Positions 308-63,251 of a stretch of 64,000 bases of DNA are shown here, in pieces. The translations under genes were made by a program, and so were the position numbers. The notes under the pieces are model-generated. The model searched no databases. It was not told the origin of the DNA and worked only from the letters and a program-made list of their open reading frames with translations. Position 1 is the first letter of the stretch; every line of letters begins with the position of its first letter. The DNA comes from Physcomitrium patens (taxonomy: Eukaryota; Streptophyta; Bryopsida; Funariales; Funariaceae). Location of the stretch: the NCBI RefSeq assembly GCF_000002425.4, contig NC_037270.1, positions 3,013,680-3,077,679 on the forward strand. The letters run 5' to 3'.

Positions 308-756
308 TGTTAGGAACATAGTCCTTAGACCTTTCTAGAGACAAGTTTCTAGAACCTTCTAGAAAGAAGTCTCTAGAAACTTCCAGAAGATTCTTTGAAT
401 ATTCTCTTAGAATATTCTTCAAAGATTCCCTAAAGATTCCCTTAAAGGCTCTAGAAGATTCTTAGAATATTCTAGTAGATTCTAGGAAGTTACTTGAGAA
501 GCTTCCTAGCTCTTGGGTAGTTGCTCGAGAAGCTTCACAGTTCTTGGGAAGCTTCTTGATGCGCTTCCTTAGAACCATAGGCCAGTAGTATATATAGGAG
601 TCGAGGCTGAAGAGTTCTTCAGTCTCGACAACACATCTCTTGGAGTTCTAGCTCACCTTTCTGGTGTTGTTCTTGTACTCATCTGTTTAATCTAGTTCTG
701 CCACTTCTTCTTGAACTTCTTATTAGATTTCAAGTCTGTATTTTGTGTCCATGACA
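308..756 (+). repeat. 3' LTR of element D (449 bp)
   Basis: Starts TGTTAGGAACATA after the polypurine tract and ends TGACA. It contains GAA/TTC heat-shock-like modules (about 345-395), a TATATATAGG box at 589-598 and the transcript-start segment CAGTCTCGACAA at 620-631, 31 nt downstream. It is shorter than the 495-bp LTR of element C because the GAA/TTC array differs. Confidence 0.88.
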
Positions 757-2454: not shown

Positions 2455-3002
2455 TGTTACAAATATATATCTACTCTAATTATTATTTAGATAATATAAA
2501 TAAGTAGAAGTAGATAAAAATAAATTAATTTTATAATATCTTCTAAAAAAGCTTCTTAAAAGCTTTTTAGACGTTTTTTTGACTTTATATGTGTTTATAA
2601 TTGATTGATAGATTAGAAACTTGGTCAATAAGCTAACTACGTGCCATATATATTGATAGCTTATGAAATAAGCTAATTATATGCTGTCTATATAAAAAAC
2701 TTGTTATACAAGTTAAGATATGTGTCATGCAAAGTTAACACGTTTTTGGAGGTCTTCTAGAATGTTGCCAAATAAATCCTAAGCAGATAGTATATATAAA
2801 GGCAAAAATAAAGTTTTTTCATTCTTGTCAAGTTTTTTCTTGTTTCTAGTATAGTTTCAAGAATCTCTACTTTCCTTGTCTTTTAATAATAGCCATTCTA
2901 ATTTCTTTTTTAATATACATATTTCTCTATTTTTATTTTGTCATATTTCTTTAAAAGATTTTGACTTTTTTATTTGCTTTCATCAAATCTTTATCCTTGA
3001 CA
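2455..3002 (+). repeat. 5' LTR of element B (548 bp)
   Basis: TGTTACAAATATATATC start and CCTTGACA end. It is related to the LTRs of K (62694-63238), A (17613-18240) and, in reverse, G and J. A TATATATAAA box lies at 2791-2800, and ATTCTTGTCAA at 2821-2831 is the predicted start of the transcript. Confidence 0.88.
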
Positions 3003-3015
3003 GATTGACAAGAAT
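2821..3015 (+). promoter_or_regulatory. Self-primer pair of element B
   Basis: ATTCTTGTCAA at 2821-2831, 30 nt downstream of the TATA box, is perfectly complementary (11 nt) to TTGACAAGAAT at 3005-3015. The latter begins 2 nt after the LTR end. Element K has ACTCTTGTCAA paired with TTGACAAGAGT at the same places. The change is therefore matched on both sides, as expected if the two segments pair. The role in priming is inferred. Confidence 0.7.
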
Positions 3016-3500: not shown

Positions 3501-3539
3501 TGTTAGGGACATATTCTTTAGAACTTTCTAGAGAGAAGT

Positions 3540-3786
3540 TTCTAGAACCTTCTAGAAAACAAGCCTCTGGAACCTTCTAGAAGAGAAGCCTCTGGAACCT
3601 TTTAGAGAGAAGTTTCTAGAAGCTTCTAGAAGGGAAGTCTCTGGAACCTTCTAGAAGAGAAGTTTCTAGAAGCTTCTAGAAAAGAATCCCCTGGAACTTT
3701 CTAGAAGCTTCCTAATTAATAGAAGTAGCTCGAGAAGTTTCTAGAACCTTCTAGAAAAAAAGCCTCTGGAACCTTCTAGAAGCTTC
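3540..3786 (+). promoter_or_regulatory. Heat-shock-element arrays in the C LTR
   Basis: Eight separate runs of alternating GAA and TTC, each with exact 2-nt spacing: 3540-3557, 3570-3582, 3614-3631, 3644-3656, 3664-3681, 3694-3711, 3739-3756 and 3769-3786. Six have four modules and two have three, 30 in all. This matches the known heat shock factor site (nGAAnnTTCnnGAAn). They lie 42-288 bp upstream of the TATA box. The same arrays recur in the 3' LTR (about 9333-9580), slightly eroded. Heat response is an inference. Confidence 0.7.
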
Positions 3787-3827
3787 CTAGTTAATAGAAG
3801 TAGCTCGAGAAGCTTCCTAAGTAGGAG

Positions 3828-3837
3828 TATATATAGG
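3828..3837 (+). promoter_or_regulatory. TATA box of element C
   Basis: TATATATAGG, 31 nt upstream of the segment CAGTCTCGACAA. The same box and spacing occur in D (589-598) and in the 3' LTR of C (TATATATAGG at about 9621-9630). Confidence 0.75.
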
Positions 3838-3858
3838 GATCGAGGCTGAAGAGTTCTT

Positions 3859-4009
3859 CAGTCTCGACAACACATCTCTTGGAGTTCTAGCTCACCTTTC
3901 TGGTGTTGTTCTTGTACTCATCTGTTTAATTTAGTTCTGCCACTTCTTCTTGAACTTTTTATTAGATTTCAAGTCTGTATTTTGTGTCCGTGACAGTTTG
4001 TCGAGACTG
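3859..4009 (+). promoter_or_regulatory. Self-primer pair of element C
   Basis: CAGTCTCGACAA at 3859-3870, the predicted 5' end of the RNA, is perfectly complementary over 12 nt to TTGTCGAGACTG at 3998-4009, which starts 2 nt after the LTR end. No tRNA-like TGG follows the LTR. The same geometry with a different sequence is present in B, F, G and K. Confidence 0.75.
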
Positions 4010-8746: not shown

Positions 8747-8892
8747 CATCCCGATAAACCTAAATCAATTCGATGATAGCTTCTTTCTGAAGCTTGTTCT
8801 CCCAACAATATAAGAAAAGGGGAGAGCACCAGCAAAATTCATAGTTGATATAGTTATTTTCTCCAAGATAGATTGTAGTTTGGTCTTTTGAT

Positions 8893-9246
8893 ATGAATAG
8901 CCAAGAGATAGATACTATGCCAATCAGAGTATCACAACCGAGTAGCTCACGAAGGCGACCCCGAGATGAAGAACTACATGTACCACGACGACGACAGAGG
9001 ATACCGAGTAACCGATCACTGGTGATCGTATTTGAGATCGAGCCTGCTTACGATGGTCAACCAGAAGGCGTGTTTGCAGGACAATTTGACAATGAGGACA
9101 CGAAAGTTCATGCTTGGTTAGAAGTCGAAGGCGTGGGCCACTACCGTTGGCTTCAAGGGTCGATGAACCACTTGCCTCGTGAACAACAGTTGGAGTTCAT
9201 AGCAGAAGTTATGCGACAGATCTTCATTTTCTTGCGTTGGTACTGA
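8893..9246 (+). CDS. Third ORF (ORF3) of element C, 117 aa
   Basis: Intact, starting 146 nt after the pol stop and in another frame than pol. The N-terminus is rich in Ser, Arg and Pro with basic runs (about residues 19-40), resembling a nuclear targeting or nucleic-acid-binding tail. The C-terminal half holds the block GVGHYRWLQGSMNHLPREQQ (about residues 82-101) and then a hydrophobic helix ending FIFLRWY. Homologues lie at the same place in D, F, G, J, A and B. No known domain is recognised and the function is unknown. There is no signal peptide and no clear membrane segment. Confidence 0.82.
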   Translation: MNSQEIDTMPIRVSQPSSSRRRPRDEELHVPRRRQRIPSNRSLVIVFEIEPAYDGQPEGVFAGQFDNEDTKVHAWLEVEGVGHYRWLQGSMNHLPREQQLEFIAEVMRQIFIFLRWY

Positions 9247-9293: not shown

Positions 9294-9788
9294 TGTTAGG
9301 GACATATTCCTTAGAACTTTTTAGAGAGAAGTTTCTAGAACCTTCTAGAAAACAAGCCTCTGGAACCTTCTAGAAGAGAAGCCTCTGGAACCTTTTAGAG
9401 AGAAGTTTCTAGAAGCTTCTAGAAAGAAAGTCTCTGGAACCTTCTAGAAGAGAAGTTTCTAGAATCTTCTAGAAAGGAATTCCCTGGAACTTTCTAGAAG
9501 CTTCCTAGTTAATAGAAGTAGTTCGAGAAGTTTCTAGAACCTTCTAGAAAGGAAGCCTCTGGAACCTTCTAGAAGCTTCCTAGTTAATAGAAGTAGCTCG
9601 AGAAGCTTCCTAAGTAGTAGTATATATAGGGATCGAGGCTGAAGAGTTCTTCAGTCTCAAAAACACATCTCTTGGAGTTCTAGCTCACCTTTCTGGTGTT
9701 GTTCTTGTACTCATCTGTTTAATCTAATTCTGCCACTTTTTCTTGAACTTCTTGTTAGATTTCAAGTCTGTATTTTGTGTCCGTGACA
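9294..9788 (+). repeat. 3' LTR of element C (495 bp)
   Basis: Same length as the 5' LTR and about 19 differences by eye. The transcript-start segment is damaged here (CAGTCTCAAAAAC near 9652), while the 5' LTR copy still pairs perfectly with the primer site. It is followed by target duplication GCTAT at 9789-9793. Confidence 0.95.
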
Positions 9789-21949: not shown

Positions 21950-22389
21950 TGTCATAGACATATAATTGAAGAAGATTCTAGAAGATTTTAGAAGTTCCTA
22001 GAAGATTCTAAAAGATTCTAATATGATCTATAAAAGCTTTAGAAGGTTCTAAGATATTTTAGAAGATTTTAGTGGATTCTAAGAATATTCTAGAAGATTC
22101 TAATAGATTTTAAGAAAGTTAGAGAAGGTCATTGGAGGCTTTGGATGATTTAAAAAGTTGCCAAAGAAGGATCTTAGACTTGCTTTATTTTCAAGCTTCA
22201 TAAAAATTTCTCAAGAAGCTTTTTAGGACAGATTATATGTAGGAGAAGACTGAGCAGATCCTCAATCTCGACAATTCACTTCTTGTAATCTAGCCAAGAC
22301 CTTTTTGTCTTGTATCTAGTTATTATTCTAATATCAAACTAACTCCATTTCTTCATCTTAAATCCTTTTCTTATATATGATTCCTAACA
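21950..22389 (+). repeat. 5' LTR of element F
   Basis: TGTCATAGACATA start and CCTAACA end. It contains a decayed version of the GAA/TTC-rich region of the C LTR (21960-22110) and the transcript-start segment TCTCGACAA (about 22263-22271). The LTR is followed by TTGTTAAGA at 22392-22400. Confidence 0.85.
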
Positions 22390-22646
22390 GTTTGTTAAGA
22401 CTACCATAAAATAATATTATAAGCTTAGTCTTTTTTAATAGATAATAGATTATCCCTCTTCTTGGAAGTACTATAGCATTCTAGAGGTTGCGGATTATCC
22501 TCCTCTAGATTAATATTTTTCTTTTTTTAATATACTTTTGTTTGTTTTGTTTTTATTTTTATTTTTGTTTTTTTATTTTTTTAATTTTTTTATATTGTAG
22601 ATCAAGTTTTTTTTCCTTTGAAGACATGTGTTTCTCTAATTTTCTA

Positions 22647-23049: not shown

Positions 23050-23601
23050 TGTCAAGGACAAAGACTCGATGAAGGAAAATATACACCAAAAGGCTATCTC
23101 GATATAATAAGTCAAAATATAAACAAGTAGGTATATTAAAAGGAAACTGGAATGGCTATTGCCGCAAGACAAGAAACTAAAGACTCTTGAACCTGGACTA
23201 GAAGCAAGAAAGGAGTTGACAAGAGTGAAGAAGCCTTCACTCTTGTCTCTATATATACTATCTAACTAGGGGCTACGTGGCGACGTTCTATAGGACCTCC
23301 AATATGTGTTGACTTTGTAGGACACATGCCTTGACTTACAAGGCAAGTTTTTCTACGTGTGGGCCACATAGTTAGCTTGATCTTCAAGCTAACAACATGT
23401 GTGGCACATGGCCAACTTGTTGACCACGTTTCTAATCCAAAAAGTCAATTAAAGACACCTATGAAGTCAAAGCAGCGTCTAGGAAGTTTCTAGGAAGCTT
23501 TTATATTAAATATTATGGAATTAACTTACTTTTATCTACTTTTACTTACTTCTACCTATTTCTATATGTAATTATTAGCTTACATGATTATGGCCGTGAC
23601 A
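23050..23601 (-). repeat. 3' LTR of element G (552 bp)
   Basis: Left copy in window orientation. Read on the minus strand it starts TGTCACGGCCATAATC next to a purine tract (AAAGGGGGGTAA, plus strand 23602-23613) and ends CTTTGTCCTTGACA. Confidence 0.95.
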
Positions 23602-23642: not shown

Positions 23643-24065
23643 TCATATGTTGAGGAAATCTATGATGCGACGAATTGTATTTGCCACATACTGTGATCTC
23701 TGTTCTCTTCGAAGATGATTGATAGGGCCTTTCAACCATCGGTAGTGTCCCATACCAGGGCGGGAAGACCACCCAGTTATTTGATCATTATTGAGGCCTT
23801 CATAACTTCCTTCGAATAGAATATTCGGAACACCATCAGGAGTTATTCCTACCTCTAGCAAAATCACCAAACATCGGGAGTCCCTTCCCAAATCGTGATA
23901 CCAAACGCGTTGTATCTCACCATCTGTTCGAGGAAGAACATGTCGTTCTTGAAGATCTTCATCTCGATTGCGTCGTCTTGAAGGTTGTGACAATCGTAAT
24001 GTCTCGTCCGGCAGGTCAGCAAACGAAGGTTCTTGAGTTGAATCCGCTGGTTGTTGGCTCTCCAT
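23643..24065 (-). CDS. Third ORF (ORF3) of element G, 140 aa
   Basis: Intact, with ATG at 24063-24065 and stop at 23643-23645. It begins 115 nt after the pol stop and is in another frame. The N-terminal third is Ser/Pro/Glu-rich with a basic run SRRRNRDED (about residues 29-37). The middle has L-V-I-LLEV and GVPNILFEGSYEG. The conserved C-terminal block is GMGHYRWLKGPINHLRREQR (about residues 107-126), then a helix ending FLNI. It is homologous to the 117-aa ORF of C although the elements are of different subfamilies. No known domain is recognised. Confidence 0.83.
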   Translation of the reverse strand: MESQQPADSTQEPSFADLPDETLRLSQPSRRRNRDEDLQERHVLPRTDGEIQRVWYHDLGRDSRCLVILLEVGITPDGVPNILFEGSYEGLNNDQITGWSSRPGMGHYRWLKGPINHLRREQRSQYVANTIRRIIDFLNI

Positions 24066-24180: not shown

Positions 24181-27100
24181 TCATTGATGAAAAACTTTGA
24201 CTTTAGCTGATGCATTTGCTAGATTCCTGGATGGCTCCCATGTGCGTTCACTAATATCATATCCGCGCCAATGAACAAGATATTCCAGCTTATTTCGGCA
24301 CCGCCTTGAGTCTAATATCTCTTCCACCTCAAATTCTTCATTATTATCTACTTCTATAGGAGGCGGTGGCATTTGTCTTCTTCCTTGTATATCCACTGTC
24401 TTATATGGTTCAAGAAGAGATACGTGGAATACAGGATGGATCTTCATTGACTCCGATAGATGTAACCGATATGCAACTGGGTTGATCTGTTCAGAAACAG
24501 AAAAGGGGCCAAGCCTACGATAGTCCAACTTGTCACAAGGTCGAGTAGTCTTGATATTGCAACGAAGTAGTCATACCTTATCACCCACGTTGATTTGTGG
24601 TTGCTCCTTACGATATAGATCTACGTTTATCTTTTGTTGTTCTTGAGCTTCCTTCAATTGTGTCTTCATTATTGCATATAACTCTGACAACCGATTTGTC
24701 ATATCTTCTGCTGGAGGATTATCAACTTTTGAAAAATCAAAAGTATCAAGTCATGCATGATAGCCATAATTTGCAAAGAAAGGTGTTTGTTGCGTGGAAG
24801 AATGTACCGTATTATTATAAGCAAACTCTGCCAATGGCAGAAGGGTTGTCCAATCATCTTGTTGGTAGTTGATAGTACACCTTAAATACTGCTCCAAGAC
24901 TTGGTTTACGCGCTCTGTTTATCCATCAGTTTGAGGATGGAAAGCCGAAGATAGCTTTATGTCCACTTTTAAAATCTTGAAAAGGGTCTTTTAAAATCTT
25001 GACACAAATTGAGTTCCCCTATCCGATATGATATCTTTAGGTAATCCATGATAGCGATAGATATTATCAATGAAAAGCTTAGCTGTTTCTTCACCTGTGA
25101 TAGATTTTGTACATGGCACAAAATGTGCCATCTTGGTGAAATGATCTACTATCACAAATATAGAATCATAAGATCTTGAGCTTGGAAGATCTGTGATGAA
25201 ATCCATAGAAACAGAAGACCATGGTTGTTCTGGTATAGGTAATGGCTGAAGAAGTCCGTAAGGTCGATGACGAGGAATTTTTGATCTTGAACAAATATCA
25301 CATGATTGTACAAAGTCTTTGACTGACTTCCACATTTGTGGCCACCAAAAATCTCTTGATATGAGTTCCAAAGTCTTATTATATCCAAAGTGCCCTGCTG
25401 CTGGAAAGTCATGACGTGCTTGAAGAACACGTAAACGTGCTTCTCCTTCTGGAACATATAGGCGTCCTTCAAAATATAATAGATTATTCTTGAACTCAAA
25501 CTTAGAAGGATCATGAGACTTAGAAGAATTATTCTCGATATCATAAACAAGAGGGTCTGAGGACATACTGGACTGGATTTGCTTGAGAAAAGTTGAATCA
25601 ACAGTCAATGTTGATTTCATTGCTCAGAGATGAAATTGCTCCGGTTTCAAGAGGACCGTTCTTTGTTGCTCAAAAGCTGCATCTCCTTCTTTTGGTGCAA
25701 AATAAGAACGTCTAGATAGGGCATCGGATAAACCTTGTTGTTTTCCTGGCCGATAAGTGATAATGAACTCGAATCTTGACAAAGACATACTCCAACGAGC
25801 TTGACGACGATTCAACACACGTGCTGACATGAAATACTCGAGGTTCTTGTGATCTGTATACACAGTGACTGGACTAGAAGCGCCTTCTAGATAATGACGC
25901 CATTCTTGAAAGGAATCCACGATCGCAAGAAGTTCTTTATCGTGGATCTCATAATTGATCTCGGCTGCTGAGAATTTTCTTGAATGAAAAGCTATCGGAT
26001 GGAGTTTGTCATTTGTTCCCATTTGTGATAAAACTGCACCCAAGGCAAAATCTGATGCATCTGTTTCCATAAAAAATACCTTGGAAAAGTCAACACGATA
26101 CAAGACTGGTGCAGAGACAAACGATGTCTTCAAGGCTTCAAATGCTGCTTCCGCTTCTTGATTCCATTGAAATTTATCTTTACTAGTCAAGCGTGTAAGT
26201 GGAGCTACAACTCGTGAGAAATCTTTGATGAAGATCCGATAGTAATTGGCAAATCCCAAGAAACATTGGACATCTCTTACTGTCCTTGGAATCTTCCAAT
26301 CCATGATTGTTTGGACTTTCTTAGAATCCATCATGAGACCATCATTTGAAATGATGTATCCTAAAAAGTCAACTTGAGTAGTGTGAAATACACACTTTTC
26401 CATCTTGGCGTACAATCCTGCATCTCTAAGTTTTTGTAATACTTGACGAACATGTATTTCATGTTCTTCGACGTTCTTTGAATAGATCAAGATATCGTCT
26501 AGATAGTAGACGACAAAATTGTCTAAAAATTCACAAAATACATCATTCATGAGATGTTGAAAAGTAGCTGGTGCATTCATGAGTCCAAAGGGCATGACAT
26601 TATATTCGAAATGTCCATACCTGGTTCGAAACGCAGTCTTCCATTCATCTCCTTCTTTGATCCGTACTAGATTATATGCTCCTCTTAGATCTATTTTTGT
26701 ATAGATCTTAGCTTGATTCAACTGGTCAAGGAGTCCTGATATCAAAGGTAATGGATACCTGTTCTTGATTGTGATCTTGTTGAGTCCTCGATAATCAACA
26801 CACATTCGTAAAGATCCATCTTTTTTCTTTACGAATAGAATTGGAGCTCCTGCTGGAGATTTTGAATGGCGTATGAAATTCTTCGCTAAATTCTCGTCAA
26901 TATATGTCTTGAGTTCAGCCATCTCATCTTGCGATAAACTGTAAATTGGTCCAAATGGTGGCTGAGTTCCTTCCTTGAGGTCGATTGAACAATCATATGG
27001 ACGATGCTCAGGAAGAATATATGCATTCTTTTTCTCAAAAACGTCTTGATACTCCTGATATTGACTTGAAATGCCACTTGAAGTCTTTACGTTTTCAGAA

Positions 27101-28838: not shown

Positions 28839-28870
28839 GCTCTGATATTGTAAGCGTACTCTTGTCAATC
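28839..28870 (-). promoter_or_regulatory. Primer-site region of element G
   Basis: Minus strand: 2 nt after the LTR, TTGACAAGAGT (28868 to 28858) is perfectly complementary over 11 nt to ACTCTTGTCAA (29047 to 29037), the predicted 5' end of the RNA 31 nt downstream of a TATATATA box (29078-29071). Twenty-two nt after the LTR lies ATATCAGAGC (28848 to 28839), which resembles part of an initiator-Met primer site. Confidence 0.72.
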
Positions 28871-29422
28871 TGTCAAGGACAAAGACTCGATGAAGGAAAA
28901 TATACACCAAAAAGCTATCTCGATATAATAAGTCAAAATATAAACAAGTAGGTATATTAAAAGGAAATTGGAATGGCTATTGCCACAAGACAAGAAACTA
29001 AAGACTCTTGAACCTGGACTAGAAGCAAGAAAGGAGTTGACAAGAGTGAAGAAGCCTTCACTCTTGTCTCTATATATACTATCTAACTAGGGGCTACGTG
29101 GCGACGTTCTATAGGACCTCCAATATGTGTTGACTTTGTAGGACACATGCCTTGACTTACAAGGCAAGTTTTTCTACGTGTGGGCCACATAGTTAGCTTG
29201 ATCTTCAAGCTAGCAACATGTGTGGCACATGGCCAACTTGTTGACCATGTTTCTAATCCAAAAAGTCAATTAAAGACACCTATGAAGTCAAAGCAGGATC
29301 TAGAAAGTTTCTAGAAAGCTTCTATATTAAATATTATGGAATTAACTTACTTTTATCTACTTTTACTTACTTCTACCTATTTCTATATGTAATTATTAGC
29401 TTACATGATTATGGCCGTGACA
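28871..29422 (-). repeat. 5' LTR of element G (552 bp)
   Basis: Right copy in window orientation; promoter side on the minus strand. It contains the TATA box and transcript start described for the primer pair. It is followed on the plus strand by GTTGG (29423-29427). Confidence 0.95.
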
Positions 29423-33981: not shown

Positions 33982-33986
33982 AGTTG
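33982..33986 (+). repeat. Target site duplication of H, left copy (AGTTG)
   Basis: AGTTG before the left LTR of H and at 45588-45592 after the right LTR. Joining the two flanks restores the integrase text of F (YYNHKLPN...). Confidence 0.93.
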
Positions 33987-35782
33987 TGTGAGTCCAAAAG
34001 TTAGTTCACATTGTTGGTTAAACTAAAAAATCTAAAAAAAATGAAGATTTTGATTATGTTTTGTTATAATAAGTTAGTTATAGACATTAATGTTAGTGGC
34101 TTATTGATGATTAGTAGTGGAAAGAAAAATCAAGGGAGAAGGAAGTGGTGGAAAAGATAAAAAAAAGAGCCAAAAGAAAAAAAAAAAAAAAAAAAAACAA
34201 AACAAAACAAAACAAAAAAAAACAAAACAAAAAAGGCCAAGAAGAAAGAAGGAAGAAGATGAAGAGGGACAAGGAGAAGAAGAAGAAAAAGGAGAAGAAA
34301 ATAATTAGAAGTAAAATTATTGTGATGGGTTTGTCAAATTGTTGATTCTTAATGATCTAGAACTTAGATTTGGGTGTATGAATAGTCAAACTTGATGTTT
34401 AAATATGTTTTAAACACATTGGTGGAGTTCGTTTTGTCAAAAAACGCTTCGAATTGGGGGTTTTGGGCATGTCCAGCCCTAAAATCGGGTTTAGGACTTA
34501 GGGTTAATGTGGGCCCTTGATCTTGATTAGGGTTGGTGGATTCGGATGGTGGAGATGTGGCCGCCACCCTTTGATCTCTTCCTACTTGGATAAGAGGGTG
34601 GAGGTGGCCACACTCCCCCTCTCTCTTTTTCTTTGGGGCGAAGCCATGCCAAATTGCTTCCCCACGTACCCTTGTTTCTATAGAGCTGCAATTATGCAGC
34701 TGTAGTGTATTAGTTATTTGGAAATAGAATGTCAAACTTTACCAATAGCTAGATCTTGTCGTTAGCGTCCTCAGGACAGTAGGCACGTTTTGTTTGGAGA
34801 GAAAACAAGAAAGTTGTGGTGGTTTTAGTAACAAGGAGGTCAGCTGCCGGCCAGATCTGGAGGTCCGACTTTGGAAGGCGATTGTTGGCGGACAGTATTG
34901 AATTTGGAGCTGAAACTTTTGTGGTGGATGGTTCTTGTTTTCAGCTTTGCAAGGACTATTTGCACGCTTAGATTGAGTAAAGGCCAAGGAAGTTATGGTG
35001 GTTGGAGAGAAGAGGAGTCGGCCGTGGTGAAGATGTAGCACTCCGCCAACTCAAGCTACTTTGGAAGATCATATCTTGGAATTCACTCAAGATTTTCAAG
35101 AAAAAATTGTTGGAGGTGATGCGGTCTTAATTCTAGTTTCTAGAATGCTAAAGCATATGCGTTGCACAACTGGAATGGAGCAAGGGCAAGGGTTTTTGTG
35201 GCCAGGGGTGCTCTGACTAGGCCGAGAAAGTCAGGCAACTTTGAGGCAAGATTTCTTTTAGCTTAATTGTTGTTTTGCATTGAATTTTGTTGGAAGACAA
35301 GCGCTTCTAAGTCTACTTTCTAAAATAGCAAAGCTTGTTATAAACAAGTTAGTGATGCAACCATTGTAGTGGAATTCGTGCAAGGGGGTCGCTGCCATGA
35401 CTTGGAAGGTGGCGACTTCTAATTTTCTTAATTTTTAGGATGAATCTTGGATGAATTAGGTCAATTGCACGAATTGTCAATTGGATGATAGGTTGACTTA
35501 TGGTTGGATGAATGAAACTTAGATGAGAATTGGATGAACAAACTTTGAATGAATGAATGTTATGGGATGAATGAGAATTAATGGATGGATGATTGATGAA
35601 TGGAAATTTAGGATGAATGAACTTAGGGTTTATGGATGAACTTAGGATTTATGGATGAACTTAGGATTTAAGGGTGAACTTAGGATTTATGGATGAACTT
35701 AGGATTTATAAAAATTGCGTGTGAGTGAAGTTAATCCACTTGACTACTAAATGCAATTAAGGGTGGAGGAATTTAGCTCACA
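33987..35782 (+). repeat. Left LTR copy of element H (1,796 bp)
   Basis: TGTGAGTCC start and GCTCACA end. Compared by eye with the right LTR, about 17 substitutions fall in the first 785 bp and only one in the last 1,000 bp. It contains a long A-rich stretch (34178-34235) and a 19-bp minisatellite near its 3' end. Open frames on either strand inside it (for example 34364-34735) recur in the right LTR simply because the LTR is repeated. Confidence 0.9.
35611..35710 (+). repeat. 19-bp minisatellite in the H LTR
   Basis: About five units of GGATGAACTTAGGATTTAT with small changes. The same array is in the right LTR (about 45416-45515), and three units remain in the LTR tail at 36759-36816. Confidence 0.9.
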
Positions 35783-36740
35783 AGTTGCCAAACAATATTG
35801 TGTTGGATTATGGGCCATAATTTATATCAAGGTTTTGCAATGCACTCTTCAAGATTCTTAAGATTGACATCAACCTTTCCTCTACTTTCTATTCTCAAAC
35901 TGATGGTCAAACAGAGCAGGGCAACTAAATTCTTGAGCAATATTTGAGGTGCACCATCAACTATCAATAAGAAAATTGGACTTCCTACTTGTCGTTGGTG
36001 GAGTTTGCATATATTAATATAATCCATGTATTTACATAACAAATGCCATTCTATTCAAATTATAGTCATCATCCAAAATTAGATATGATAGAGCCTTCAA
36101 AGTTTGTAAATCTAGTAGTAGAGGAGTTTACTATGAAGATGGCCAAACTTCAAGCAACCATGAAGACTCACCTAAAAAGGGCTCAATAATGTTATAAGCT
36201 ATTAGCGGATCAATTGACGAAAGAACATCCTCTATGCCATGTTGGTGACAAAGTGTGGCTTCTTTGACACAATATAAAAACCAACAGGCCATGTGATAAG
36301 TTGGACTAGTGAAGGTTGGAACCATTTGTGATTCAAAAACAAATTAATAATGTAACTTATCACTTAGAGTTACCTTCATCTATAAAGATTCATTTAGTCT
36401 TTTATGTTTTACTTTTGGAAATGTATAAAGAATTGAACATACCAGGTTAAAGACAACCTCTATCTCCTATGGTTGAAATCAATGATCATGTTAAATTTGA
36501 CGTAGAAGATATATTAAATTCAAAGATAAGATATGAAAGGCTTGAATATCTGGTCTATTGGCATAGATATGATATCAACAATCACACATGGGAACTAGTT
36601 GGCAACCTTAAATGTACAAAATGAAGGTTCAAAGGTTTCATCAACAACATCTATCTTGACCAAAAGTAGTAAAATAAAAAATAGTAGCTTAATAAGATGC
36701 CTTCTTCATGAATATTCTTAGTTCTTGGCTTCATAAAGAA
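35783..36740 (+). repeat. Copy of F flank inside the 5' end of H
   Basis: 958 bp of element F (end of integrase core, chromodomain region, linker). By eye it is identical to 45588-46545, which is the genuine continuation of F to the right of H. The constant offset of 9,805 bp at both ends shows no net indel. It interrupts the 5' LTR of H and is not expected in a retrotransposon. Confidence 0.9.
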
Positions 36741-37543: not shown

Positions 37544-40500
37544 ATGTTCCCAAAAACTAGATCTCAAAAACCTTCTTTGAACCAAGGACTTGAACATATT
37601 GGAAGATGTGGAGGCAAGGTCGTGGATAACAAGGAAGCAGCCCCTTCTTGGAAAACACTCATTAATAGTAGAAGCAATGAAGAATTTCTTGGAAGAGACA
37701 TTAGAAGGAATTTAGAAAAGGCTTTAGGAGACGTCGGGGGCAGCGAGCTATTGGAGGAGTTGGAAGTGGAGGAGTTAGAGATAGAACACGTAGATCCTGA
37801 AGACGGAGTGTTTGGAGACGTGAACCTTAGAAAAATAGGAGAACAGGATAGGACCTTGGACTTTGTGCCTACGGTCGAAGGATTTGTTCACGAGATGGCA
37901 ACGGAGCGGCTTCCAGCTTTGGATCCCTTAGTTAGGCCACGAGGTTTGCCCGTGGCTATGTCAGTAGGGCTATTAGCGGCCATAGTTCCAAGGAATCTCC
38001 CCAAGTTTTATGGCACCAAGGACGAGGATCCAACCCTACACATGGAGAGGTACATAGAGATCTTGACAACATCCCTCATTGGGAACGAGGGATATTACCT
38101 GGTTTGGTTCCCTGGAACCTTACACGGTGAGGCTTACAATTGGTACCGGGACCATGATAAGGGACATTTTACCACGTGGTCCCAGTTGCAAGTAGCCTTC
38201 TTAAACCACTTTAGGTCGGAGGTTGGACAAAGTACAGCCTTGAGAGCACTGGGAGCGGTATGACAACAAAGAGATGAGGAAATGGCTAACTACATCATGA
38301 GGTTTGACTTAGTCTGCATGCGTTATGTAGGAGGATTATTGAATGGCGATACGTTAAAGTAATTCTTCATTAAAGGATTTGCTAATCGATCTACAATCAA
38401 GGGAGTATTAGAGAGAAACCCAGCCACTTTGGAGGAAGCCAAAACAGCGGCACGCGTTGTAGATTTAATCGAGAGAAGTTATAAAAGGCATTGGAGGAAG
38501 GAAGATGAGTCTATCTCGGGGTTTATTCTAATTAATCCCGTAAGCTAAGCGGTAGGACCAAGCACGTCAAGTACACCTCCGATAGTCGACAATGGTGCCC
38601 AATATTACAATGTCATGCCCACGGCCACCAGAGCTCTAGTACCCTTATTGGCGTTACTAGAGCCACAATTGGAGAAGAGAGTGTAGGACTTGGAGAAGAA
38701 AATACAGGCCAGACAAGAAGGTTTTCAAGACTCCGTGATGAAGTAGATCTAAGCCTTGACTGAGCAGATGGCATTCATGGTAAAGAATCAAAATTCAAAC
38801 ACCCCACCTCCTTGGATAGAGTCTGGTAACCATAACTCGGGGATTTGGTGCACTACTGGTGGCCAAAATGGACATTCATCTCTTCAGTGCCGAGTAAGGC
38901 CTCAAGGTAATCCAAATCCTCAACCATACCAGCCAACACAGGGCTATGGAAGAGATAGAGGACCTCAGCAGCGGCAAGGAGGTTATCAAGGTGGTCCTCA
39001 AATATATGGTAGAAGTGGCAGGCCTCGGAAGGAGTACCATGAGCTTTGCAGGAGATGGCATGAGCCGGGTCAGTGCTGGGATGACGGCCAACCATGGTCG
39101 TGTGGCAATTGTGGTAGCAATCACCCTATCCATGAATGTAGACAACCTGATAAGGTAATTCAACTACCACCACCAATAACAAATCCTTATGAGAACGCGT
39201 GGAATAACATGAGAGATCAGAGATGACCTCATGGTGATGATCAGAGGGGCCTAAGACCTCCTAATCTCTACTACAACTATGAGGATTCCAGACAAAACCA
39301 TCAACCTCCGGAAGGGTTAGAAACCCACCAAGGTTATATCCCAGTTGTCCAAAATCAACAAGGCGGCTATCAAAACTATGCAAATCAGAAACAAGGTCCA
39401 TCTTCTAACCAAGATGTTAGAGTAGCGGAAGAGGTCTTATTGAATGGTCCTGCACGATCTCTAGCAAAGACCATAGTGGTGATTGAAGAACATGAAGCAC
39501 CTTCTAATTTAGTGACCCACGAATTGAAGAAGGACGAAGGCGGTGGCCATGAGAATGCTACTTTGGCTGTGATTACCCGAGGGCAAGCTCATAGACAATC
39601 ACCAATCGATGAAGAAGACTCAGATAGTAGTGACTCTGAAGAGTTGTTGGATTTAGTAGCTCTTGAGGCGGCCACAAAGGAGGCGACAAGAATTACAAGG
39701 GAGGTAGGCACCGCGGTGGGTGATGAAAGGTCATTTGAAGGTTCTGATCCAGGTAAAGGGTTAGAACCGGGTGAATGGGAGGGTCCAGATATTCCAGAGG
39801 AGGAGTTTGGAAGGTTGGGTCGTACGATGCCAACCTCTTACCAGAAGTATGATCTCTGGAGGGACTTGCGGAGGATAAAGGCTGACATCTCAATTGGTCA
39901 TTTATTAGAGATATCTCCTTTGATGAGGAAGAGTTTCAAAGAAGGATTGCCTAGGGCGAAGAAGAAGAAGAAGACTCAGAAGAGGACAGTGGCTAAGGTA
40001 CAAGCATCTATTAGGCTAGTAGATGTGAAGGCAGTGGAGATCGAGATCACTATCGTGGACAAGGTGGTTCCGAATGTGCTTATTGATGGAGGTAGTGGAC
40101 TTAACATCATGCCACTTCATACCATGGAGAAGTTGTGGTTGAATTTAACCGGACCATCACCATTTGTATTAAACATGGCAGATCAGAGTCCTGCTAGGCC
40201 TTTAGGCCAGATCACGAACCATAAAATCTCTACAAGAGGGGAGGATTACTTAGTGACCTTCCATGTTATCAGGATGCACACTTCCAAAGAGTCTTTTCCA
40301 CTTTTCTTGGGTCGTCCGTGGTTGAGGATGGCCAATGCCACCATCATGTGAGGTGGTGATAAGCCCTCCATAGTTTACGGTCCATATGAAAATCCCACTA
40401 AAGTTAGAATCAAGCCTTTGATAGGACTCGAGGTGGTTGACACCATATCTATTGGAGAAGGCACACCATTAAAATTTGTGGATGGGATGACGTTTGAAGC

Positions 40501-43621: not shown

Positions 43622-43789
43622 GGTAGCAGGTGTAAAGAATATAAGACATGAGGGAGCGCAATTTTGGGCAAGAGCTCCATCTTTCTATCTTATGACAAGG
43701 CGACAGTATGAACTGGCATGGTGAAAATACTTTAAAGGACAAAAAATGGCAAGTACAAGCTGGATTCGTCCCCTGATGGTCGCCAATTA

Positions 43790-45587
43790 TGTGAGCCCAA
43801 AAGTTGCTTCACATTGTTGGTTAAACTAAAAAATCTAAAAAAAATGAGGATTTTGATTATGTTTTGTTATAATAAGTTAGTTATAGACATTAATGTTAGT
43901 GGCTTATTGATGATTAGTAGTGGAAAGAAAAATCAAGGGAGAAGGAAGTGGTAGAAAAGATAAAAAAAAAGAGCCAAAAGAAAAAAAAAAAAAAAAAAAA
44001 AAAAAAACAAAACAAAACAAAAAAAAACAAAACAAAAAAGGCCAAGAAGAAAGAAGGAAGAAGATGAAGAGGGACAAGGAGAAGAAGAAGAAAAAGGAGA
44101 AGAAAATAATTAGAAGTAAAATTATTGTGATGGGTTTGTCAAATTGTTGATTCTTAATGATCTAGAACTTAGATTTGGGTGTATGAATAGTCAAACTTGA
44201 TGTTTAAATATGTTTTAAACACATTGGTGGAGTTAGTATTGTCAAAAAATTCTTCGAATTGGGGGTTTTGGGCATGCCCAGCCCTAAAATCGGGTTTAGG
44301 ACTTAGGGTTAATGTGGGCCCTTGATCTTGATTAGGGTTGGTGGATTCGGATGGTGGAGATGTGGCCGCTACCCTTTGGTCTCTTCCTACTTGGATAAGA
44401 GGGTGGGGGTGGCCACACTCCCCCTCTCTCTTTTTCTTTGGGGCGAAGCCATGCCAAATTGCTTCCCCAAGTACCCTTGTTTCTATAGAGCTGCAATTAT
44501 GCAGCTGTAGTGTATTAGTTATTTGGAAATAGAATGTCAAACTTTACCAATAGCTAGATATTGTCGTTAGCGTCCTCGGGACAGTAGGCACGTTTTGTTT
44601 GGAGAGAAAACAAGAAAGTTGTGGTGGTTTTAGTAACAAGGAGGTCAGCTGCCGGCCAGATCTGGAGGTCCGACTTTGGAAGGCGATTGTTGGCGGACAG
44701 TATTGAATTTGGAGCTGAAACTTTTGTGGTGGATGGTTCTTGTTTTCAGCTTTGCAAGGACTATTTGCACGCTTAGATTGAGTAAAGGCCAAGGAAGTTA
44801 TGGTGGTTGGAGAGAAGAGGAGTCGGCCGTGGTGAAGATGTAGCACTCCGCCAACTCAAGCTACTTTGGAAGATCATATCTTGGAATTCACTCAAGATTT
44901 TCAAGAAAAAATTGTTGGAGGTGATGCGGTCTTAATTCTAGTTTCTAGAATGCTAAAGCATATGCGTTGCACAACTGGAATGGAGCAAGGGCAAGGGTTT
45001 TTGTGGCCAGGGGTGCTCTGACTAGGCCGAGAAAGTCAGGCAACTTTGAGGCAAGATTTCTTTTAGCTTAATTGTTGTTTTGCATTGAATTTTGTTGGAA
45101 GACAAGCGCTTCTAAGTCTACTTTCTAAAATAGCAAAGCTTGTTATAAACAAGTTAGTGATGCAACCATTGTAGTGGAATTCGTGCAAGGGGGTCGCTGC
45201 CATGACTTGGAAGGTGGCGACTTCTAATTTTCTTAATTTTTAGGATGAATCTTGGATGAATTAGGTCAATTGCACGAATTGTCAATTGGATGATAGGTTG
45301 ACTTATGGTTGGATGAATGAAACTTAGATGAGAATTGGATGAACAAACTTTGAATGAATGAATGTTATGGGATGAATGAGAATTAATGAATGGATGATTG
45401 ATGAATGGAAATTTAGGATGAATGAACTTAGGGTTTATGGATGAACTTAGGATTTATGGATGAACTTAGGATTTAAGGGTGAACTTAGGATTTATGGATG
45501 AACTTAGGATTTATAAAAATTGCGTGTGAGTGAAGTTAATCCACTTGACTACTAAATGCAATTAAGGGTGGAGGAATTTAGCTCACA
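43790..45587 (+). repeat. 3' LTR of element H (1,798 bp)
   Basis: TGTGAGCCC start and GCTCACA end, followed by AGTTG (45588-45592) and the F sequence. The A-rich run is at 43966-44035 and the 19-bp repeats near 45416-45515. Confidence 0.93.
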
Positions 45588-45592
45588 AGTTG

Positions 45593-46480
45593 CCAAACAA
45601 TATTGTGTTGGATTATGGGCCATAATTTATATCAAGGTTTTGCAATGCACTCTTCAAGATTCTTAAGATTGACATCAACCTTTCCTCTACTTTCTATTCT
45701 CAAACTGATGGTCAAACAGAGCAGGGCAACTAAATTCTTGAGCAATATTTGAGGTGCACCATCAACTATCAATAAGAAAATTGGACTTCCTACTTGTCGT
45801 TGGTGGAGTTTGCATATATTAATATAATCCATGTATTTACATAACAAATGCCATTCTATTCAAATTATAGTCATCATCCAAAATTAGATATGATAGAGCC
45901 TTCAAAGTTTGTAAATCTAGTAGTAGAGGAGTTTACTATGAAGATGGCCAAACTTCAAGCAACCATGAAGACTCACCTAAAAAGGGCTCAATAATGTTAT
46001 AAGCTATTAGCGGATCAATTGACGAAAGAACATCCTCTATGCCATGTTGGTGACAAAGTGTGGCTTCTTTGACACAATATAAAAACCAACAGGCCATGTG
46101 ATAAGTTGGACTAGTGAAGGTTGGAACCATTTGTGATTCAAAAACAAATTAATAATGTAACTTATCACTTAGAGTTACCTTCATCTATAAAGATTCATTT
46201 AGTCTTTTATGTTTTACTTTTGGAAATGTATAAAGAATTGAACATACCAGGTTAAAGACAACCTCTATCTCCTATGGTTGAAATCAATGATCATGTTAAA
46301 TTTGACGTAGAAGATATATTAAATTCAAAGATAAGATATGAAAGGCTTGAATATCTGGTCTATTGGCATAGATATGATATCAACAATCACACATGGGAAC
46401 TAGTTGGCAACCTTAAATGTACAAAATGAAGGTTCAAAGGTTTCATCAACAACATCTATCTTGACCAAAAGTAGTAAAAT
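45593..46480 (+). pseudogene. Element F: integrase end and chromodomain
   Basis: Integrase text with FYSQTDGQTE (about 45692-45721) and AYINI..VFT, then the HVGDKVWLL and CDKLD segments, HLVFYVLLLEMYKE, and a decayed chromodomain with EYLVYWHRYDI (about 46348-46385), ending at about 46450. It has stops. Its first 953 bp are copied at 35788-36740. Confidence 0.82.
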
Positions 46481-46665
46481 AAAAAATAGTAGCTTAATAA
46501 GATGCCTTCTTCATGAATATTCTTAGTTCTTGGCTTCATAAAGAAAGAAAGGAGACAACCTCTGAAGAGACAATTTTTTCAAATGTTTAGAACATTATAA
46601 GTTAGTAGTTTAAATTTACAACCATAGCTTATTTATATTCTTTTGGTCTTGTCTACTTTATATGA

Positions 46666-47020
46666 TATAGATAGTCAAAAAATAGATACCATTTCGGTCA
46701 TCCCATCTCAACCAAGTGGCTTGTAAAGATGACCCTAAGATAAAGAGCCATCTGATCTATGAAGACATCAAAGGATACATAGTAATAGGTTGTTGGTAAT
46801 TATGTTTGAGACAAATTTTGCCTATGAAGGATATTCAAAAAGAGTGTTTGCAAGAAAATTCCATAATGAAGATATCAAAGTTTATGCTTGGTCACAAGTA
46901 GAAGGGTTGGGGCACTATCAATGGCTATAAGGGCCTATGAATCATTTAGCTCACAAAAAACAATTGAAATATATAGTGGACACCATGCGATAGATCTTCA
47001 ACTTCTTGTGCATATATTGA
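46666..47020 (+). pseudogene. Third ORF (ORF3) of element F
   Basis: From DSQKIDTI (about 46670) to TGA at 47018-47020, matching the third ORF of C along its length. The conserved block reads GLGHYQWL, a stop, GPMNHLAHKKQ (about 46907-46968). Decayed by stops but collinear. Confidence 0.78.
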
Positions 47021-47070: not shown

Positions 47071-47552
47071 TATCATAGACATGTAATTGAAGAAGGTTCC
47101 AAAAGATTTTAGAAGATTTTAGAAGGTTTTAGAAGGTCCCAATAGAATCTAAAAAGCCTCTAGAAGGTTCTAGGAGGTTTTAGAAAGTTCCAAAAGGTTC
47201 CAAAAGATTCCAATGGATTCTAAAAAGATTCTTGAAGATTCTAATAGATTCTAAGAAAGTTCTAGAAGGTCGTAGGAGATCTTAGAAGGTTCTAAGAGGC
47301 TTTGGATGATTTAAGAAGTTGCCAAAGAAGGATCTTAGGCTTGCTTTGTTCCCAAGCTTCATTAAAACTTTTCAAGAAGCTTCTTAGGATCTAGTATATA
47401 TTGGAATTGAGACTGAAGAGATCCTCAATCTTAACAACTGACTTCTTATAATTTAGCCATGACCTTCTTGTCTGGTATTTAGTTATTATTTTAATATTAA
47501 GTTGATTCTATTTCTTCATCTTAAATCCTTGTCTTGTATATGGTCTCTAATA
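47071..47552 (+). repeat. 3' LTR of element F
   Basis: Starts TATCATAGACATG after a purine-rich tract and ends CTCTAATA. The segment TCTTAACAA at 47429-47437 complements the primer site TTGTTAAGA at 22392-22400, whereas the 5' LTR has TCTCGACAA. It is GAA/TTC-rich between 47090 and 47300, but with eroded spacing. Confidence 0.82.
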
Positions 47553-61037: not shown

Positions 61038-61236
61038 ACTCTTTTCAATCTGTCAAGGACAAGAACTTGATGAAAAAATAATTCAGACAAGTAAGCCTTC
61101 ATTCAAAGAAAGGTAATAAAGTATAAATAAAAAAGTGTGCATTTTGAAAGAGAAATTGGAATGGCTATTGCCAAAAGATAAGAAAACTAGAGATCTTTGA
61201 AACTAGACTGGAAGCATGAAAAGAGTTGACAAAAGT
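61038..61236 (-). promoter_or_regulatory. Primer site and transcript start of element J
   Basis: Same places as in G: plus-strand ACTCTTTTCAATC (61038-61050) next to the LTR and TTGACAAAAGT (61226-61236) inside it. The two are now mismatched at two positions. The neighbouring ATATCAGAGC is also changed (plus-strand GCTTTGATAT). Confidence 0.6.
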
Positions 61237-61610
61237 GAAGAAGGCTTCACTCTTATTTCTATATATATTATCTAACTAGGGACTATGTGGCGACATTCTA
61301 TAGGACCTCCAATATGTGTTGACTTTGCAGGATATTTGTCTTGACTTACAAGGCAAGTTTTTCCTCGTGTGGGCCATATAGTTAGCTTGGTCTTCAAGTT
61401 AACAACATGTGTGGTACATGGCCAACTTGTTGACCATGTTTTTAATCCAAAAAGTCAATTAAAGCTACCTATGAAGTCAAGCACTGTCTATGAAGCTTCT
61501 AAAAAGCTTCCATACCAAATACTATAGAATTAACTTATTTTTATTTACTTTTATTTATTTCTACTTATTTATATATGTAATTACTAGTTTATATGAGTAT
61601 GTTCGTGACA
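61051..61610 (-). repeat. 5' LTR of element J (560 bp)
   Basis: TGTCAAGG at 61051 and CGTGACA at 61610. Noticeably diverged from the left copy, more than the two LTRs of G. Confidence 0.93.
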
Positions 61611-62693: not shown

Positions 62694-63238
62694 TGTCATG
62701 GACATATATATTTATCCTGATAATTATCTAGATAATAAGAATAGTTAGAAGTAAGTCAAAGTAGATAAATATAATAATATCTTATAAAAAGCTTCTTAGA
62801 AGCTTCATAGACATTGCTTTGCCTTTATACATGTCTATAGGTGATTTGTAGGTTGATAACTTGGCCAACAAGAAGGCCACGTGTTCATATGTTGACCACT
62901 TGTAGTACAAGTTGAACATATGGCACACACCTAAGAAACTTGCCTTGCAAATTAGACATGTGTTTTGTAATTTGGACACATATTAGAGTTCCTATGGCAT
63001 GTTGTCATGTATTCTTTCTTTAAGTAATATATATAAAGGCAAGAGTGAAGTCTTCCTCACTCTTGTCAATTCTTTTCTTGATTTTTAGTCTAATTTCAAG
63101 AGTCTTATGTTTTCTAGTTGTTGTCAATAGCCATTCTAATTCTTCTTTGAATATACATACTTTCTTCTATTTTGTCACTTTCCTCTTGACACAAATTCCA
63201 CGACTTTATTCATCTTCTTTCAGTTTGTGTCCTTGACA
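62694..63238 (+). repeat. 5' LTR of element K (545 bp)
   Basis: TGTCATGGACATATA start and GTGTCCTTGACA end. TATATATAAA box at 63028-63037, and ACTCTTGTCAA at 63059-63069, the predicted RNA 5' end. Confidence 0.9.
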
Positions 63239-63251
63239 GATTGACAAGAGT
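63059..63251 (+). promoter_or_regulatory. Self-primer pair of element K
   Basis: ACTCTTGTCAA (63059-63069) and TTGACAAGAGT (63241-63251) are perfectly complementary over 11 nt. The second starts 2 nt after the LTR. ATATCAGAGC follows at 63261-63270. The duplex is identical to that of G. Confidence 0.72.

Follow-up and report, generated by a model that had tools for sequence, protein, structure and literature searches.

Self-priming of reverse transcription was first demonstrated for the fission yeast element Tf1, and later work has implicated it in other systems (PMC4600332). In Tf1 of Schizosaccharomyces pombe, the first 11 nt of the RNA serve as the primer, and RNase H cuts between nucleotides 11 and 12 (PMC7175516, PMC10085805). 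A second duplex of the Tf1 'pretzel' pairs the end of the LTR with sequence that follows the primer (PMC10085805). For plants, self-priming has been predicted in the TAR lineage of Ty1/copia elements and, by Neumann et al. in 2019, in the majority of moss and club-moss elements of the Tcn1 clade (PMC6317226). Novikova, in 2010, reported SM-Tcn1 of Selaginella with neither tRNA priming nor self-priming found, and the PCR survey of that year detected Tcn1 elements in Selaginella besides the mosses already known, with none obtained from 26 ferns and horsetails (PMC2864245). In Physcomitrium patens, RLG1 is an abundant, protonema-expressed Ty3 element with a chromodomain and 5092 complete copies listed, whose tree is less obviously congruent with the host tree (PMC7466625).

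The window analysed here is a stretch of 64,000 nt of P. patens DNA with a GC content of 32.5%, and repeat comparison revealed it to be a nest of LTR elements, which we designate by letters (Table 1). Those of the self-priming type code for reverse transcriptase (RT), RNase H, integrase, SH3_Tf2-1 and a chromodomain, the last of which is found in G, partly in C, and also in the related locus L006 introduced below. The reading frames of C and G are broken. These and other window elements may belong to the same family as RLG1, which was compared by description only. A neighbouring Ty3-type gag frame (37544-38263) is 90% identical, over its full length, to a Physcomitrium patens protein.

Between the chromodomain and the 3' LTR, an extra frame of 124-140 aa is present in both G (23646-24065, minus strand) and C (8872-9243, plus strand). 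The two copies are 38% identical over 118 positions with a common GHYRWL..NHL.REQ stretch, and neither matched Pfam; repeats related to this frame lie at 1-257 and 46764-47020. Nested in F is a young Ty3-type element with direct repeats of 2.76 kb (33984-36740 and 43787-46545, 99.2% identical), which we take to be Tat-like.

Table 1. LTRs, predicted priming segments, start-site palindromes and coding domains of elements in the 64-kb window.
Feature	Position	Strand	Evidence or remark
A, C-type LTR (taken as 3' LTR) with start-site palindrome	308..756	+	13/14 positions paired, z -6.2
B self-primer	2821..2831	+	exact complement; B start-site palindrome decayed
B primer binding site	3005..3015	+	
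C element 5' LTR (TG...CA)	3501..3995	+	96% identical to 9294-9788; TSD GCTAT both sides
C TATA box	3828..3835	+	
C start-site palindrome, left arm (U3)	3840..3851	+	12/14 positions paired; z -4.2 vs shuffled left part
C self-primer, predicted RNA nucleotides 1-11	3860..3870	+	pairing reaches one base further upstream, 3859
C primer binding site	3998..4008	+	2 nt past LTR; 4009 pairs too
C element 3' LTR	9294..9788	+	LTR pair comparison, TSD GCTAT
F element 5' LTR (old)	21950..22389	+	76% identical to F 3' LTR; ends and 4/5 TSD bases
F primer binding site	22392..22400	+	
F element 3' LTR	47071..47552	+	R segment 47429-47437 complements F primer binding site
G element 3' LTR	23050..23601	-	TSD CCAAC; palindrome z -6.2
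G SH3_Tf2-1 and chromodomain	24184..24570	-	Pfam PF24626 8.9e-18, PF00385 2.8e-15; PDB chromodomains of CDYL, HP1
G integrase part (H2C2 and rve)	24991..25620	-	
G reverse transcriptase and RNase H	25624..26922	-	Pfam RVT_1, RT_RNaseH
G primer binding site	28858..28868	-	
G element 5' LTR	28871..29422	-	98% identical to 23050-23601; TSD CCAAC
G self-primer	29037..29047	-	
G start-site palindrome, left arm	29056..29068	-	13/14 positions paired, z -6.0
H element 5' LTR	61051..61610	-	TSD ATTCT; palindrome z -3.3
H decayed self-primer; primer binding site	61236-61226; 61048-61038	-	9/11 pairs
K start-site palindrome, left arm	63038..63048	+	-16.8 kcal/mol, z -4.6
K self-primer	63059..63069	+	
K primer binding site	63241..63251	+	

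According to the preliminary description of this DNA, a segment 2 nt past the LTR of five elements is complementary to the first nucleotides predicted for the RNA of the same element. All five pairs proved exact, with 12 nt in C, 11 nt each in B, K and G, and 9 nt in F; the match of F holds for its 3' LTR, whereas its own 5' LTR has two differing positions. Element H, absent from that list, has kept 9 of 11 pairs between its primer binding site (PBS) and its own 5' LTR. The distance from the TATA box to the first segment, put at 30-31 nt, measured 30 nt in B and 31 nt in C, K and G. TG at the start and CA at the end mark the 5' LTRs of C, F, G and H, the 3' LTR ends of F and H being mutated, and target site duplications (TSDs) back the boundaries in C, G and H, with four of five bases in F. 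Because LTR ends and TSDs fix the boundaries in C, G and H, the constant gap of 2 nt (GT or GA) past the terminal CA, likewise claimed, can be taken as real.

By scanning prokaryote-labelled assemblies containing foreign eukaryotic DNA, we obtained 66 related loci (L001-L066); apparent eukaryotic retrotransposons are present in many assemblies with such labels. Junctions were then defined by a strict rule, requiring a TATA box 29-34 nt upstream, complementarity over no fewer than 11 nt, a CA followed by a fixed gap, and segments 80-250 nt apart. At a gap of 2 nt the rule yielded 11 junctions, four in the window (B, C, G and K) and seven among the related loci (L001, L002, L004, L006, L007, L035 and L052). 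The predicted start (+1) is an A after a C, 30-33 nt from the TATA box, in all 11. At other gaps, the rule returned two gap-1 matches, both from a single site that the two copies of an unrelated LTR have in common (35373 and 45178), and true pairs read in a shifted register (K at gap 1; L001, L002 and C at gap 3). Inside the 2.76-kb repeats, a short inverted repeat (35373 with 35465) imitates the self-priming pattern at gap 1.

In the shuffle control, 40 first-order rounds over 68 sequences (the 66 loci and both window strands) gave five matches at gaps 0-5. A looser scan, accepting at least 9 nt, found 29 matches in the real sequences, compared with 13-21 in each of five shuffles and 20 in the reversed sequence; with the looser scan so near control level, only long gap-2 matches count. 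Counts from a further scan (126 matches in both real and reversed sequence, the latter partly true pairs read backwards, with negative distances in both) were not used. When the region upstream of gag was scanned without the TATA rule in 45 loci, a match of at least 11 nt at gap 2 newly appeared in L041 only. L024 and L041 look like chance matches (downstream of pol; AT-rich) and were rejected. B, C, G and K show the pattern that Neumann et al. used as their rule: no tRNA-type PBS and, 0-5 nt past the LTR, a stretch of at least 10 nt that complements it.

Most plant LTR elements are primed by a tRNA (PMC6317226), and if its 3' end or a half molecule acted here, the match to the LTR would be incidental. 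In agreement with the preliminary description, TGG occurs at 0-5 nt past the LTR in none of the 11 strict junctions, and a search of the 64-kb window for tRNA genes and Rfam families gave no match; on these grounds priming by a tRNA 3' end was rejected, and tRNA priming of either kind is rated exceedingly improbable. The PBS, furthermore, varies widely between lineages and still matches its own LTR.

This variation takes place on both sides of the pair. The primer types include AGTCTCGACAA, ACTCTTGTCAA, ATTCTTGTCAA, AAGGCGAACAA, AAGGTGAACAA and ACTCTTGATCAA, and in each the PBS is the complement of its own primer. Over 10 element types, primers and their own PBS match in 107 of 110 pairs, a value that none of 20,000 permutations equalled, although with related rows this is not a true probability. 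The earlier observation that both sides change together between subfamilies is thereby upheld. Such covariation is expected without compensating mutations if each new PBS is copied from the primer, in the manner of retroviruses, where the PBS of each new copy derives from the primer by copying.

Ten of the related loci form a near group, comprising L001-L008, placed by the RT tree, and L035 and L052, which lie outside the tree and have the same primer and promoter sequence as L004. Junctions were found in seven of the ten; scans of the near group found none in L003 and L008. In L001 the gag frame is uninterrupted and pol is open to the end of the contig, and in L006 both gag and pol, with the chromodomain, are uninterrupted, so the features described here occur in apparently complete elements. 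L001 shares 79-80% identity with G in RT, and its primer is the same as that of C. In both loci the pol frame begins 6 nt past the last base of the gag stop codon and in a different frame (L006 1343-1360, ATG; L001 1463-1480, GTG), and therefore a frameshift or reinitiation may be needed.

In the RT tree, G groups with L001 (support 100/99) and with L002/L008 (99/96). The clade containing G joins mucoromycete and chytrid elements (88/93), vertebrate elements come next (81/78), and Tanacetum chromoviruses stand apart, the deep supports being moderate. Membership of the Tcn1 clade is putative and follows from these relatives, the tree having been built without a named Tcn1 sequence. Loci L002-L008, L035 and L052 all come from the Trichormus-labelled assembly CAKZGI01 (ERR2144891), in which two groups were distinguished: L002/L008 fall next to the moss elements and L003-L007 next to those of mucoromycetes. 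The same assembly contains L027, L029 and L030, near the Tanacetum plant chromoviruses. The host DNA in this assembly probably belongs to a plant; the fern Azolla, which has Nostoc (Trichormus) azollae as its symbiont, is one possible source. The position of the second group nearest to mucoromycete fungi, at modest support, could mean horizontal transfer. Two distant elements with an LTR pair in the contig also carry matches, of 9 nt at gap 2 in L010 and of 11 nt directly after the repeat in L033 (10 nt at gap 2 if the LTR ends at CA). A search of viral contigs returned no relatives.

Leader RNAs folded from the predicted start to 25 nt beyond the PBS gave a primer:PBS pairing probability of 0.90-0.98 in 10 of 11 elements. 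The exception is C, at 0.07, where forcing the duplex costs 3 kcal/mol. The final bases of the LTR were also predicted to pair with sequence from the sixth nucleotide after the primer onwards in L002, L004, L006, L007 and L035 (z -2.4 to -4.3), that is, in five of seven elements of the related loci, and this second duplex varies on both sides between elements. C, B, K and L001 lack it, in G it is weak and in L052 not significant, and the third pretzel duplex found no support in any of the 11 elements.

We consider it highly probable (about 0.9) that these Tcn1-type (Tf1/sushi) chromoviruses self-prime, with RNA nucleotides 1-11 folding onto the PBS 2 nt past the 5' LTR. The Tf1/sushi geometry put forward in the preliminary description is borne out by features observed directly at the junctions, namely the position of the segments, a complement of 11-12 nt, the constant gap and the covariation, and by the duplex predicted in 10 of 11 elements (not C). 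In the proposed mechanism, Pol II would start the genomic RNA at an A 30-32 nt after the TATA box, and nucleotides 1-11 would fold back on the PBS, which follows the 5' LTR at a distance of two nucleotides. On the model of Tf1, RNase H would cut after nucleotide 11, and the short RNA would prime minus-strand DNA. During plus-strand synthesis a new PBS would be copied from the primer, letting both sides evolve together, and integrase would remove the two spacer nucleotides.

The preliminary description overlooked a palindrome that spans the predicted start. Its left arm lies in U3, between the TATA box and the start, and duplicates the core of the PBS, being complementary to the beginning of the primer; its right arm coincides with the primer. 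In L005, whose 5' LTR is damaged, the PBS still matches the left arm. Among 21 distinct LTRs folded, 16 lay at least 3 standard deviations beyond shuffled left parts; of the five below that value, L002 lacks the palindrome, and B, D15, F5 and F3 have it in decayed form. The window has 318 TATATA sites, both strands included; the 16 followed by the most stable hairpins are the TATA boxes of eight such LTRs (A, C5, C3, G5, G3, H5, H3 and K), each counted twice.

The arms covary as well. In 12 moss-type LTRs, 91% of cells pair, as opposed to 38.5-54.5% for slid partners, and all 500 shuffles were exceeded in three measures: the proportion of cells that pair, the cells with both sides changed, and the covariation score. 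The remaining two of the five were unremarkable: 137 of 500 shuffles scored as high for pairs changed on both sides, and 33 of 500 for further pair types. Left arms match their own primers better than those of other elements (74 of 90), and one in 20,000 permutations did as well. In the distant elements L010 and L033, the primer was not paired to an upstream arm (L010 z -2.1, from a hairpin upstream of the primer; L033 z 0.3).

The fate of the primer in the folds depends on where the RNA begins. Started at +1, it goes to the PBS in 10 of 11 elements; started 24 nt earlier (-24), it lies in the hairpin with a probability above 0.5 in 8 of 11, the exceptions being B, L002 and L004, and in L004 the hairpin does not outcompete the PBS duplex. 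Self-priming RNA would face a difficulty here: the genomic RNA would necessarily carry two copies of the primer segment, one at the 5' end and the other in the 3' LTR part. Nothing would be gained if the PBS paired with the latter, and cleavage at that copy would interrupt the template needed for strand transfer. Since transcription includes the left arm only for the 3' LTR copy or for RNAs started upstream, the hairpin would silence just those. As a tentative model, to which we give somewhat less than even odds, the palindrome may act as a start-site lock, in which the U3 arm mirroring the PBS binds the primer segment, leaving it free only in RNA that begins exactly at +1. With similar reserve we suggest that the 3' LTR copy and read-in RNAs would thereby be kept off the PBS and uncut, and that left arm, primer and PBS may form a three-way covarying set.

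The same folds would also suit transcripts that really start upstream, with the hairpin at the 5' end of the RNA and another role for the PBS match, since the hairpin is favoured in 8 of 11 elements once the left arm is transcribed. Such a start would, however, fall only ~10 nt after the TATA box, and the CA step at +1, 30-33 nt from TATA, is present in all 11 strict junctions; we regard an upstream start as very unlikely. Somewhat unlikely, but the strongest competitor of the lock, is a function in DNA unrelated to priming, such as binding of a dimeric protein at a promoter or initiator site, for which the position between the TATA box and the predicted start would be apt. The right arm, however, is the primer itself, and the sequence of the palindrome differs between lineages with its pairing kept, which does not suit a single protein site. 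Finally, polymerases switch templates at quasi-palindromes, and this established behaviour, if shared by reverse transcriptase in the hairpin, could keep the palindrome near perfect without selection. We hold this to be unlikely as the full account, as it leaves unexplained both the overlap with the primer and the persistence at one spot in distant lineages.

Compared with the systems described so far, the window elements resemble Tf1 in the 11-nt primer at the RNA 5' end, the PBS after a 5' LTR ending in CA, and the chromodomain. Unlike Tf1, they show little of the second pretzel duplex, and, so far as two accounts of Tf1 cover the topic, they mention no start-site palindrome, a comparison by description and not by sequence (PMC7175516, PMC10085805). 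With the Tcn1 clade (PpatensLTR, SM-Tcn1) they have in common a moss host, a chromodomain and predicted self-priming, whereas the Tcn1 accounts, so far as they cover the topic, give no geometry, covariation or start-site palindrome (PMC6317226, PMC2864245). The TAR lineage is alike in being a predicted case of plant self-priming and differs in superfamily. A literature search that took in the Tf1 and Tcn1 accounts cited here found no description of such a palindrome, of the start-site geometry or of a three-way covariation.

The preliminary description had questioned whether this geometry is established in plants. As regards experiment the doubt stands, for we know of no direct proof of self-priming in a plant. 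As regards prediction it does not: in 2019 a similar rule had already led to self-priming being predicted for the plant Tcn1 clade (PMC6317226), and what we did not find in print is the palindrome.

The loci yield exact predictions that can be tested, namely a single start base, an 11-nt primer and a 2-nt overhang, and P. patens is easily manipulated. If the lock is real, it would explain how a self-priming RNA with two identical end segments uses the right one.
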